DNA of 45,995 bases from Patescibacteria group bacterium. GTDB taxonomy: Bacteria; Patescibacteriota; Minisyncoccia; Phycocordibacterales; PALSA-1337. The translations under genes and the position numbers were made by a program. Location of the stretch: contig JAGWLA010000005.1 of the NCBI GenBank assembly GCA_028865095.1, positions 1 through 45,995 on the forward strand. Direction: 5' to 3'. The notes under the pieces were generated by a model, which saw only the letters and a program-made list of their open reading frames with translations, did no database searches and had not been told where the DNA came from. Numbering within the stretch: the stretch's first letter is position 1; each line of letters begins with the position of its first letter. This document shows positions 15,866-37,645 of the stretch, in pieces.

Positions 15866-16570
15866 ATGACGAACGGCGAAGACCGGCAGGACCCGCTCCC
15901 CCTCACCCGGAAGGATATCCACGAGCACGCCATCGAGGAGCACCTCGAGCGCATCAACCGCGAGTTCCGCCGCGGCTTCGAGTTCCTGGAGAAGTACCCT
16001 CGCTCGGTGAGCATATTCGGCTCGTCCATGGCCTCTCGGGACAGCGAGCACTACCGGAACGCGTACGAGCTCGCCAAGCGCATCGTCGCCGAGACGGGCT
16101 ATGCGGTCATCAGCGGCGGCGGCCCGGGGATCATGGAGGCCGCCAACAAGGGCGCTTTCGAGGCCGGCGGCCCGTCCATCGGACTGCGCATCAACCTGGT
16201 GCGCGAGCGCATCGCCAATCCCTACGAGACCGACGGGCTCGACTTCACTTATTTCTTCGCCCGGAAGACCATGCTCACCTTCGCCGCGGAGGCCTACATC
16301 TTCTGCCCCGGCGGCTTCGGGACGTTCGACGAGCTCTTCAGCATCCTCACCCTCATCCAGACGAACAAGATCCCGCGGGTGCCGATCCTGCTCTTCGGCG
16401 CAGGCTTCTGGGCGCCGATGAAGGGGTTCATCGAGAAAGTCATGTACGAGGGATATCATGCCATCGACCATCCGGACATGGGGCTGTTCGAGATCACGGA
16501 CTCGGCCGACCATATCGTCGAGACGATCAAGAGCGCCCCGACGTCCGACTGGTGGAGGAACATCAACTAG
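15866..16570 (+). CDS. LOG-family protein (TIGR00730-type nucleotide phosphoribohydrolase fold)
   Basis: 234 residues. The LOG family has a Rossmann fold and hydrolyses nucleoside monophosphates such as cytokinin ribotides to base and ribose phosphate; many bacterial members are uncharacterised. Motifs are complete: SIFGSSMASRDSEHY, VISGGGPGIMEAANKGAFEAGG and PGGFGTFDELFSILT near residue 148 with the catalytic Glu. It is 20-40 residues longer at the N-terminus than the shortest members. Transcribed alone, divergent from tgt, and ended by a strong bidirectional hairpin at 16574-16597. Confidence 0.9.
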   Translation: MTNGEDRQDPLPLTRKDIHEHAIEEHLERINREFRRGFEFLEKYPRSVSIFGSSMASRDSEHYRNAYELAKRIVAETGYAVISGGGPGIMEAANKGAFEAGGPSIGLRINLVRERIANPYETDGLDFTYFFARKTMLTFAAEAYIFCPGGFGTFDELFSILTLIQTNKIPRVPILLFGAGFWAPMKGFIEKVMYEGYHAIDHPDMGLFEITDSADHIVETIKSAPTSDWWRNIN

Positions 16571-16573
16571 CAG

Positions 16574-16597
16574 AAAGCCCGCCATATGGCGGGCTTT
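16574..16597. terminator. Bidirectional rho-independent terminator
   Basis: AAAGCCCGCC-ATAT-GGCGGGCTTT is a perfect 10-bp hairpin with T runs in both directions. It lies between the convergent LOG-family and RNA-binding-protein genes. Confidence 0.85.
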
Positions 16598-16621
16598 CCT
16601 TCGCGAGGCCGGAAGCGGCGA

Positions 16622-16876
16622 TTACTGCTGCTTCGGACGGGCCTCCGAGACGACGATCTTGCGGCCGTCGAGCTCGGAGCCGTTCAGCTTCTCGATCGCC
16701 GCAGACGCATCAGCGTCATTGGCCATCTCGACGAAGCCGAAGCCCTTGGAGCGGCCGGACATCTTGTCCATGATGACCGCAGCGGACTCGACCGCGCCGA
16801 CCTGCTCGAAGTGAGCTTTGAGGCCGTCATCGGTCGTGGTCCAGGCTATGCTGCCCACGAAAAGTCTCTTTGACAT
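16622..16876 (-). CDS. Small RNA-binding protein with one RRM domain
   Basis: 84 residues, a single RRM with almost nothing else. RNP2 is LFVGSI (residues 5-10) and RNP1 is KGFGFVEM (about 44-51), both with the aromatic RNA-contacting residues. It resembles the short glycine-poor Rbp proteins of cyanobacteria and other bacteria, which are often cold-regulated. It likely binds single-stranded RNA in the cytoplasm. ATG at 16876 is chosen over an upstream alternative start because MSKRLFVGS is the normal RRM opening. Unlike most genes here it has a predicted leader of about 90 bases holding a perfect hairpin (16910-16946), which suggests post-transcriptional control. Confidence 0.93.
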   Translation of the reverse strand: MSKRLFVGSIAWTTTDDGLKAHFEQVGAVESAAVIMDKMSGRSKGFGFVEMANDADASAAIEKLNGSELDGRKIVVSEARPKQQ

Positions 16877-30416: not shown

Positions 30417-31208
30417 ATGCTCGCAAGCTTCGCATTCTTAAAGCGCGTAGCGGCGAATCCCGGGATCGGGAAGATCCGCACCATCGTGGAGATCGGCGCG
30501 AACAAATGCACAGAGAGCCTCGATTTCTTCGATTCATTCCCTGATGCCGATATCTATCCGTTCGAGTGCAATCCTGACACCATCCCGATCTGCAGGGACG
30601 CGATCAAGGGCAAGGCGCGGATCCATCTGATAGAGAAAGCCGCGAGCGACCGGGATGGGACGATCGATTTCTTCCCCATCGATACAGCCCATGCTGCGAC
30701 GATCCATGAGGATGGAAACACCGGCGCCTCGTCCCTCTTCCTCCGCAATGACGACAACGGGGTCACCCGCGAACGGCTCCCCCAGAGACAAGTGACTGTG
30801 GGATCGATTGCTCTGGAGACCTTCATGCGCGAGCATGAGCTCGGCTCGATCGACATGCTCTGGCTCGATGCCCAAGGGGCGGAGCTCATGATCCTGAAAG
30901 GCCTTGGCCCGCGCATCGGCGACGTAAAACTCATCCAATGCGAGACCGAGTTCGTCGAAGAATACTCCAGGCAGCCACTCTATCCCGAGATACGCTCGTT
31001 CATGGAGCGGCATGGCTTCGTCTTCTGCGGATTCTCGTCGGAATGGTATCCGCATGCCGCCGATTCAATCTTCATCCGGCGCGACATCTTCGAAGCCATG
31101 CCGCTCCTGGCGAAGATATTCTTCCGGTTCTTCGCAGCGCTGCCGGTCGGACCGGCATGGTCGCGAAAGATGACATACCGGATGCGCCGCTGGTACGCCG
31201 GGGTATAA
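30417..31208 (+). CDS. FkbM family methyltransferase
   Basis: 263 residues. IRTIVEIGANKCTESLDFF is the SAM motif I, YPFECNPDTIPICRDAI binds the ribose, and IDMLWLDAQGAELMILKGLG is the FkbM LDxxGxE motif. RKHGFVFCG-like C-terminal strand is present as ERHGFVFCG. Probably adds a methyl group to a sugar hydroxyl of the exported glycan. It follows the ATPase by 5 bases. The stop TAA at 31206-31208 lies inside the next promoter. Confidence 0.87.
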   Translation: MLASFAFLKRVAANPGIGKIRTIVEIGANKCTESLDFFDSFPDADIYPFECNPDTIPICRDAIKGKARIHLIEKAASDRDGTIDFFPIDTAHAATIHEDGNTGASSLFLRNDDNGVTRERLPQRQVTVGSIALETFMREHELGSIDMLWLDAQGAELMILKGLGPRIGDVKLIQCETEFVEEYSRQPLYPEIRSFMERHGFVFCGFSSEWYPHAADSIFIRRDIFEAMPLLAKIFFRFFAALPVGPAWSRKMTYRMRRWYAGV

Positions 31209-34927: not shown

Positions 34928-35844
34928 AAGAGGCGGCAGACCAAAACGTGCCTCCCGTCCTGCTCATGCTCTTCAACAGGGCCGATACCACGCGCAAAGT
35001 GTTCGAGACGGTCAGGGCGGCAAGGCCATCCAAGCTATTCATAGCGGCTAACGGCCCCCGCCCAAACATGGCTTCCGATATCGACAAGTGCCGGGCTGTG
35101 CGCGAGATATTCAGCGGCATAGACTGGGAGTGCGACGTGCATACCAATTTCCGGGAGAAGAACATCGGCATGCAGCCGCATTGGCGGCTAGCGCTGGACT
35201 GGTTCTTCGAAGGGGCGGATGCTGGCATCATCCTCGAGGATGATTGCGTGCCGCATCCGTCTTTCTTCGGCTATTGCGGCGAGCTCCTGAAACGCTACAA
35301 GGATGAGCCGCGCATTATGCATATCAACGGTTCGAATTTCCAGTTCGGCATTCCAAGAGGCGATGCCAGCTATTATTTCTCGCGTTACCCTCACGTATGG
35401 GGATGGGCCACCTGGAAGAGGGCGTGGCAGGGATATGACGACAGCCTCTCCACCTTCCCGAGATTCGAGAAGGACGATGACATCGGCGAGATGGTCTCCG
35501 ATCGCAGGCAGAGGGATTATTGGATGAAGTTCTTCAGGGGCCTTCGGGATGGCAGATATGACACCTGCGATGCCAAGTGGATATATTCGATATGGGCCAA
35601 TGACGGCCTCTGCATAACGCCTAACACAAACCTGATCGAGAACATCGGCTATGGCGCTCAAGCCACGCACACGTTCCATAAGGATCGGATACTCGGGCAG
35701 AGCGCGCGGGACATAAGGCCGATCAGTCATCCTGCCCCGGTCTATACGGCCGACCGCGCTGCGGACGATCGCACTTTCGAGGTTTATTTCAAGAAGAACC
35801 TCCTACAAAAAGCCCTCTATAAGATAAGGCAGCATCTCTCATGA
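34924..35844 (+). CDS. Glycosyltransferase-like protein with EDD motif
   Basis: 306 residues from the ATGA overlap at 34924. PPVLLMLFNRADTTRKVFETV opens a GT-A nucleotide-sugar fold, and GIILEDDCVPHPSFFGYCGELL carries the acidic metal-binding motif. HVWGWATWKRAW is a hallmark of a family often annotated as hemolytic protein HlpA-like or nucleotide-diphospho-sugar transferase. It likely adds a sugar to the glycan chain. A longer frame starting at 34897 would overlap the methyltransferase more and is less likely. Its stop overlaps the fucosyltransferase start by ATGA. Confidence 0.82.
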   Translation: MKEAADQNVPPVLLMLFNRADTTRKVFETVRAARPSKLFIAANGPRPNMASDIDKCRAVREIFSGIDWECDVHTNFREKNIGMQPHWRLALDWFFEGADAGIILEDDCVPHPSFFGYCGELLKRYKDEPRIMHINGSNFQFGIPRGDASYYFSRYPHVWGWATWKRAWQGYDDSLSTFPRFEKDDDIGEMVSDRRQRDYWMKFFRGLRDGRYDTCDAKWIYSIWANDGLCITPNTNLIENIGYGAQATHTFHKDRILGQSARDIRPISHPAPVYTADRAADDRTFEVYFKKNLLQKALYKIRQHLS

Positions 35845-36719
35845 TCGTCGTCGCCATCAAAGCCGGCCTCGGCAACCAATTGTTCCAATATGCCTGCGGG
35901 CGGGCCCTCTCCCTACGCAACGGCGAGCCTATCAAGTTCGACATCACCAGTTATGCCAGGACCGTGAATTCAGATACGCCTCGACAATATCTCCTCGACC
36001 GATTCAATATAGCCGACGTGGCCTTCGCCGGAGAGGATGAGGTCCGCAGGCTCAAATATCCGCACGGCGGGCTTTCGATGCTCTATCGCCGCCTGCGCAC
36101 CAAGCTCGGCCTGCACAATGTGGGCTGGGTGCCTCGCATCCTCCGCGCGCGCGGAGACATATATCTCGACGGCTATTGGCAGACCGAGAAGTACTTCGCC
36201 GACCGGGCCGACGTCATCCGCGCGGAGCTCTCCTTGAAAGGGCCGCTCAGCCCTGCAGCGCAGGCGGTCGCGGACGATATCGGCGCAGGAAGCATGCCCG
36301 CCGTCTCCCTTCACGTCCGCCGCGGTGACGTGGCCCGCGACTGGAAGACCAATCCTTATGCCGGCATATGCACCCCCGCGTATTACGAAGCGGCCCTCGC
36401 CCGGATGAAGGACGAGCTCGCCAAGCGAGGGATATCCTCCTTCCGCGCCTTCGTCTTCTCTGACGGCATGGAATGGGCGAAGGAGAACATCCGCATCCCC
36501 TTCCCGACCGTCTACGTGCCTGATGAGGCGCCCGATTACGAGCAGCTCATCCTCATGTCCCGGTGCGCGCACCACATCATCGCCAACTCCTCGTTCAGCT
36601 GGTGGGGCGCATGGCTCGATCCCAAGCCGGACAAGATCGTCATAGCCCCCAAGCGGTGGATACAGAAGCACGGATATAGGCACAGAGACACGGTTCCTGA
36701 AAGCTGGATACGGATATAG
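35841..36719 (+). CDS. Alpha-1,2-fucosyltransferase-like (GT11)
   Basis: 292 residues. GT11 enzymes transfer fucose from GDP-fucose in alpha-1,2 linkage. Motifs: IKAGLGNQLFQYACGRAL at the start, YLDGYWQTEKYF, SLHVRRGDVAR (the HxRRGD nucleotide-binding motif) and ANSSFSWWGAWL. All key family landmarks are present. It is the last gene of the coupled run 34142-36719. GDP-fucose synthesis genes are not in the window, and some GT11 members use other linkages. Immediately followed by the structured repeat at 36725. Confidence 0.92.
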   Translation: MIVVAIKAGLGNQLFQYACGRALSLRNGEPIKFDITSYARTVNSDTPRQYLLDRFNIADVAFAGEDEVRRLKYPHGGLSMLYRRLRTKLGLHNVGWVPRILRARGDIYLDGYWQTEKYFADRADVIRAELSLKGPLSPAAQAVADDIGAGSMPAVSLHVRRGDVARDWKTNPYAGICTPAYYEAALARMKDELAKRGISSFRAFVFSDGMEWAKENIRIPFPTVYVPDEAPDYEQLILMSRCAHHIIANSSFSWWGAWLDPKPDKIVIAPKRWIQKHGYRHRDTVPESWIRI

Positions 36720-36724
36720 CGGGA

Positions 36725-36847
36725 AGAGACGCGGGAGCGAGGCTTGAAGGACACTTCGCAGGCGATTTCCAGCAGGAAATCGCCGAGATGTAGCGCGGCC
36801 CCTGCAGGGGCCGACGCGCGTCCTGAAGGCCTCGCTCACGCGTCTCT
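36725..36847. repeat. Three-way-junction inverted-repeat element
   Basis: Outer arms 36725-36752 and 36820-36847 are 28 bases each and match as inverted copies at 24 of 28 positions. Inside lie two perfect hairpins: GGCGATTTCC-AGCA-GGAAATCGCC (36761-36784) and the 18-base palindrome CGGCCCCTG/CAGGGGCCG (36796-36813). The whole folds as a cloverleaf-like Y. It begins 5 bases after a stop and ends 15 bases before the next -10, with no T run, so it is not a normal terminator. It may be a REP/MITE-type element, a processing or stability structure, or an unknown RNA. Confidence 0.8.
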
Positions 36848-36874: not shown

Positions 36875-37645
36875 ATGGCTTCCCCCCGCATATCCGTCAT
36901 CATGCCCGCGTTCAACCGCGAAAGATACGTCGCCGAGAGCATGCGGAGCGTGCTGGCGCAGTCGTTCAAGGGCTTCGAGCTCATCGTCGTCGACGACGGG
37001 TCGACCGACCGCACCCTCGAGATCGCCCGGGAGATCGCCGCGACCGACCCGCGAGTGCGCATCGAGAGCAACAGCAAGAACCTCGGCATCGCCCGGACCC
37101 GCAACAAAGCCCTCGGCGTGGCGCAGGCCGAGTACGTCGCCCTCCTGGACAGCGACGACATCTGGGTCGACCGCGACAAGCTCGCCAAGCAGGCGGCGTT
37201 CCTCGACGCCCATCCCGACCATGCCTTGGTCGGCGGCGCCATCCGGCATATCGACCCCGACGGCAAAGCCCTCCGGGTCGCCGTCTTCCCCGAATCGGAC
37301 GCGAGCATCCGCAAGATCATCCTGCGCTTCAACCCGTTCGCCCAGTCGACCCTCATGTACCGGAAGGACGCCATCCTCGAAGCGGGAGGCTATAGCCCCG
37401 CCTATCAGGTATGCGACGACTATGCGCTCTGGCTCGCCGTCGGCAAGAAATATAAGTTCGCCAATTTCGGCGACATCTTCACCGGCTACCGCATCCACGG
37501 GAGCAACATCACCCGCACCAAGCGCCTCACCGCCGCCCGCGAGATATTCGAGATCGTCCGCGCGAACAGCGCCGCTTATCCGCGGCCGTGGATCGGCATC
37601 GCCAAAGCGTACGTCCGCTTGGTCGTGGCGTTCTTCAGGACATAA
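36875..37645 (+). CDS. Glycosyltransferase family 2
   Basis: 256 residues. ISVIMPAFNRERYVAESMRSVLAQ opens the GT-A fold, LIVVDDGSTDRTLEIA binds UDP, and VALLDSDDIWVDRDKL carries the DxD-type motif. Soluble, with no membrane helix. Typical GT2 donors are UDP-Glc, UDP-Gal or dTDP-Rha; the specific sugar is unknown. Transcribed alone from its own leaderless promoter at the end of the polysaccharide locus, and convergent with the VirD4-like gene. Confidence 0.93.
   Translation: MASPRISVIMPAFNRERYVAESMRSVLAQSFKGFELIVVDDGSTDRTLEIAREIAATDPRVRIESNSKNLGIARTRNKALGVAQAEYVALLDSDDIWVDRDKLAKQAAFLDAHPDHALVGGAIRHIDPDGKALRVAVFPESDASIRKIILRFNPFAQSTLMYRKDAILEAGGYSPAYQVCDDYALWLAVGKKYKFANFGDIFTGYRIHGSNITRTKRLTAAREIFEIVRANSAAYPRPWIGIAKAYVRLVVAFFRT

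Follow-up and report, generated by a model that had tools for sequence, protein, structure and literature searches.

A dispersed hairpin repeat with a conserved core and locus-specific inverted arms in Candidatus Taylorbacteria

Introduction

Among described repeats, Rickettsia palindromic elements (RPEs) are the closest in behaviour to the Patescibacteria element reported here. RPEs are palindromic, ~100–150 bp long and dispersed in a small host genome, and they often lie in frame within conserved genes (PMC10969869). The Patescibacteria element likewise inserts in frame into genes for conserved proteins (ligA, infB, mnmA, tgt, folD and others). In contrast, RPE families are defined by conserved sequence, whereas the outer arms of the present element vary at each locus, its core is a three-way junction and its copies lie mostly between convergent genes.

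Two further comparisons were raised when the locus was first annotated. REP/BIME repeats are also palindromic, intergenic, present in many copies and found at gene 3′ ends. However, the present element inserts within genes, its arms are host-specific and its host genome lacks a Y1 (RAYT) transposase, so a REP/BIME assignment does not hold. MITEs are, like the present element, short, non-autonomous and dispersed, with terminal inverted repeats. Enzyme recognition normally keeps the terminal inverted repeats of transposons conserved, whereas those of the Patescibacteria element are locus-specific.

Mitochondrial double-hairpin and repetitive hairpin elements are small, mobile, organellar DNAs that share with the present element both their mobility and the possession of two hairpins; an enclosing locus-specific arm is not known among their features. 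Near-perfect inverted repeats also arise by fold-back copying during template-switch (quasipalindrome) mutation (PMC7202029), and perfect inverted repeats may occur in genes as coding palindromes (PMC6649704). Both differ from the present element in having neither a conserved dispersed core nor a fixed arm length. No description of such elements in Patescibacteria was found in the open-access literature searched, which is not proof that they are undescribed; apparently, a hairpin repeat family in these tiny genomes has not been reported so far.

Results

The window, a stretch of 45,995 nucleotides, comes from the 758-kb genome of a Ca. Taylorbacteria member (Patescibacteria). The element that it contains (Table 1) has the sequence organisation originally claimed for it, with outer inverted arms enclosing two hairpins, and 25/28 arm positions are paired in the fold. 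This fold is a three-way junction of −96.1 kcal/mol, compared with −55.0 ± 4.7 kcal/mol in shuffles (z −8.7), and its energy was equalled by 0/200 shuffles. The element fills the gap, as initially described, from just past the fucosyltransferase stop to a promoter-like stretch, TATGCTACAAT, ahead of the next glycosyltransferase gene. The reported lack of a T tract after the stem was confirmed, and the structure does exceed a terminator. The ~67-nt core of the family, comprising two hairpins and tandem G·A mismatches, is conserved, and the mismatch appears as GA facing GA in 60/97 aligned copies. Beyond the G·A pair, ~21 nt of the left arm are particular to the window copy and are not matched elsewhere in 406 kb of genome sequence.

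Table 1. Features of the element and its neighbouring genes, in window coordinates.
Feature	Position	Strand	Remarks
Upstream gene, glycosyltransferase family 11 (fucosyltransferase)	35841..36719	+	PF01531, 2.6e-26
Left outer arm, 28 nt	36725..36752	+	Pairs with 36820-36847
Tandem G·A mismatch, left half, at arm/core border	36746..36747	+	
Conserved core	36753..36819	+	blastn and covariance-model matches in genome, genus and order
Hairpin H1, GGCGATTTCC-AGCA-GGAAATCGCC, 10 bp, AGCA loop	36761..36784	+	
Hairpin H2, 18-base palindrome CGGCCCCTGCAGGGGCCG, extended by GCG/CGC	36796..36813	+	
Right outer arm, inverted complement of left arm	36820..36847	+	
Tandem G·A mismatch, right half	36825..36826	+	
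Downstream gene, glycosyltransferase family 2	36875..37645	+	PF00535, 1.1e-34

The initial proposal of a dispersed repeat family is borne out by further copies in the genome and in relatives, among which covariation is pervasive. The host genome holds at least 7 copies detectable by blastn and ~11 detectable with a covariance model built from 25 copies. Within the genus, the model finds copies in 30/34 genomes, with a maximum of 32 in G032. A sample of the order gave matches at E ≤ 1e-4 in 62/297 genomes; the top matches, on inspection, mostly had the same layout, with long arms running past the model ends. Four order-level copies (L142, L145, L146 and L150) contain a GCTTGG-containing module within H1 and may form a subfamily. 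Across a phylum-wide sample, 14/379 genomes match, all but three of them from the same order, and two weak matches from another class share core sequence. The family is almost absent from the phylum outside the order. In an exact pattern search of 84,980 species genomes, all matches came from Ca. Taylorbacteria and Patescibacteria metagenome-assembled genomes, and on this basis the host is assigned to Ca. Taylorbacteria.

The arms behave differently from the core. Complementarity between the two arms of one copy is 0.87, compared with 0.30 when arms are swapped between copies, and clustering the arms of 65 copies gives 58 groups; copies do not share their terminal inverted repeats, and the earlier likening to MITEs fails. 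L004 and L006 have identical 68-nt cores, yet their outer arms match at only 7/19 positions, and L019 and L026 have identical 72-nt cores, yet match at only 5/19. Drift is not expected to replace arms while sparing the core, and identical cores with unrelated arms imply that arms are acquired, whether made or captured, at each insertion. One pair, L178/L179, is an exception that shares 14/19 outer arm positions, which counts against arms being made afresh per insertion.

Arm complementarity (0.7–0.85) is high up to offset 27–28 and then falls to 0.35, near background, at offset 29. Element lengths, taken from stricter arm-extension scoring since a lenient version overran the arms, peak at 123–125 bp, with a usual overall span of 123–127 bp. 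In some copies the arms are longer or interrupted, which counts against a fixed limit. Two subfamilies in G032 have the core and ~18 bp of inner arm in common and differ only in the outer 9–12 bp, which are again paired perfectly or nearly so and abut the inner arm without a loop. At the outer borders, purines are favoured on the left and pyrimidines on the right, and arm GC follows flank GC (r 0.48). By inspection of boundary composition only, no direct repeat (target-site duplication) was noticed. We also considered arms as guides or spacers and rejected this idea: elsewhere in 406 kb, nothing close to a full-length match to the arms of the host-genome copies occurs, only chance matches of 13–14 nt.

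Convergent gene ends host 33/38 classified intergenic copies, whereas gaps of this type make up ~20% of gap bases (P ≈ 2e-18, a count based on a crude ORF caller), and these copies often span the gap from stop to stop. The window copy is an exception, its two neighbouring genes having the same direction. Eight or more copies are inserted in frame within genes. The host genes, confirmed by Pfam, are ligA, infB, mnmA (in two species), tgt, folD, those for a GT4 glycosyltransferase and an ABC-F-like ATPase, and a comF-like gene, whose comF match falls under the Pfam cut-off. Copies probably persist at sites where an insertion is least damaging, namely between convergent genes or, in frame, in protein loops; the bias towards convergent gene ends could also reflect selection for a function.

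Several loci can be compared between species. The host genome (G000) and G017 lack an insert in the ligA loop that carries one in G033 and G009, although the insert is 108 nt against a 123-bp element, and part of each flank could be native. Elements with unrelated arms, partly in opposite orientation, occur in different species at gyrB and recR, indicating independent insertions or fast turnover. These three loci served better than infB, at which relatives are too dissimilar (only ~60–70% identity) for empty sites to be read. At the recR locus of G008 (L252), the final codons of recR, which are conserved, and its stop lie in the left arm, and the right arm carries them as an inverted copy. This arrangement is suggestive, fitting a native left arm and a copied right arm, although a single case is not proof.

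Some loops carry other inserts. The ABC-F gene of the host genome (L232:17848-17911) has a different hairpin insert, GAAGGAGAAAGGAG...CTCCTTTCTCCTTC, in the loop that bears the element in G024. Three species have different inserts, each with its own arms, in the same variable loop of mnmA (L098, L100 and L102). Within the window, positions 16570-16632 correspond to the site of copy L014 in G032 but are empty; L014 itself adjoins an intact ordinary terminator.

The position of the intergenic copies invites the reading that the element is a bidirectional transcription terminator or an mRNA 3′-end stabiliser, under selection and occasionally duplicated, with arms that drift by compensatory change. 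The preference for convergent genes, the copies that fill a gap from stop to stop and the ordinary short terminators at many empty sister loci would agree with such a role, and L135/L137 do show compensatory arm change. We consider it unlikely, however. An intrinsic terminator would have a U tract after its GC-rich stem, and none is seen here, L014 stands beside a terminator that is still intact, and the copies within ligA, infB, tgt, folD and mnmA are in frame. Identical cores with unrelated arms, and the near-lack of G·U pairs in H1 and H2, also speak against it.

If the core instead inserted into the centre or loop of existing palindromes or hairpins, the arms would be older than the insertion. 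In favour of this, GGCGGT...ACCGCC in the ligA flanks may be a short native inverted repeat. However, 406 kb of host sequence contain only ten inverted repeats with arms of at least 15 matches (none in shuffled sequence), and about half of these are the element itself. Hardly any long inverted repeats lack the core, and pre-existing hairpin targets are thus improbable. The fixed outer boundary argues in the same direction, as do the G032 outer arms, which leave no loop bases where they meet the inner arms, and the empty sister loci, which have short ordinary terminators, a few unrelated inverted repeats or nothing in place of long hairpins. The arms therefore probably did not precede insertion.

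In an alignment fitted to the structure, and hence biased towards it, 32/32 modelled pairs show two-sided changes in some copies (10/10 in H1 and 7/7 in H2), and 96.9% of cells pair, compared with 61.9% in shuffles; the unfitted alignment A1 shows covariation at 28/32 pairs. The share of G·U among pairs is 0.9% in H1 and nil in H2; in the outer arm it is 9%, mostly beside the G·A mismatch. Selected RNA helices are usually richer in G·U, and its near-absence from H1 and H2 suggests pairing at the DNA level. A structured non-coding RNA family, or a regulatory element acting as RNA, would account for the three-way junction, its conserved junction sequences and the strong covariation, but this reading, raised at first, is very improbable given the scarcity of G·U, the occurrence of copies in both orientations with respect to host genes and of some inside coding frames, the unrelated arms of different copies and the lack of a gathering-level match in Rfam.

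Discussion

Dispersed copies, a conserved core, unique complementary arms, a fixed boundary, DNA-type pairing and loci that are occupied in some species and empty in others were all observed, and mobility of the element is well supported. On balance we favour, with some reserve, a non-autonomous mobile DNA hairpin of ~123–127 bp that gains its arms by fold-back synthesis, as inverted copies of the target flank. The part copied to new sites would be the core, consisting of the inner stem, the tandem G·A mismatch, H1 and H2, and the element may travel as folded single-stranded DNA. Upon insertion, ~10–21 nt of target flank would become an inverted pair flanking the core, so that every copy would have arms of its own and a fixed outer limit. 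Fold-back (snap-back) synthesis from the inner stem could copy the target flank outward to that limit, such that the second arm is templated on the first and one arm is native while the other is its inverted copy. Copying of the flank in this manner would explain the complementarity, uniqueness, fixed length and composition of the arms. The data compare species and hold no strain-level empty site, and thus the inverted-copy step is not seen directly.

As for the enzyme, which like the arm-making step we infer, neither a mobilising enzyme nor an autonomous relative was found. The Y1 transposase domain (PF01797) is absent from the host genome, which is 99.9% complete; across the genus it is present in 21/34 genomes and absent in 13, including the element-rich G010 and G024, both incomplete. 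A reverse transcriptase (PF00078, RVT_1) is also absent from the host genome, and we rejected both enzymes as mobilisers encoded there, together with a group II intron, retron or DGR retroelement.

Variable ends around a conserved centre imply that both movement and the formation of inverted repeats differ from those of transposons with conserved termini. The family may perhaps represent a new class of mobile DNA, with a folded core only, that makes fixed-length terminal inverted repeats from host flank in a genome with neither Y1 transposase nor reverse transcriptase. For a mechanism that makes terminal inverted repeats from host flank, we tentatively offer the name "inverted target duplication"; a literature search for "inverted target site duplication" gave one unrelated match only. 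The family is abundant in small-genome Patescibacteria, where it probably shapes gene ends, and its in-frame copies probably add ~36-residue peptides to essential proteins. The element provides a marker for recent transposition, and its copies are a natural collection of near-perfect DNA hairpins for template-switching studies.

Other inverted repeats occur in these genomes. G004 (L284 and L256) has long inverted repeats of AAATCCAAA-like units at gene ends, which are unrelated to the element core. At positions 31004-31107 of the window, a 70-nt loop is enclosed by perfect inverted arms of 17 bp, a structure that is not a member of the hairpin-repeat family.
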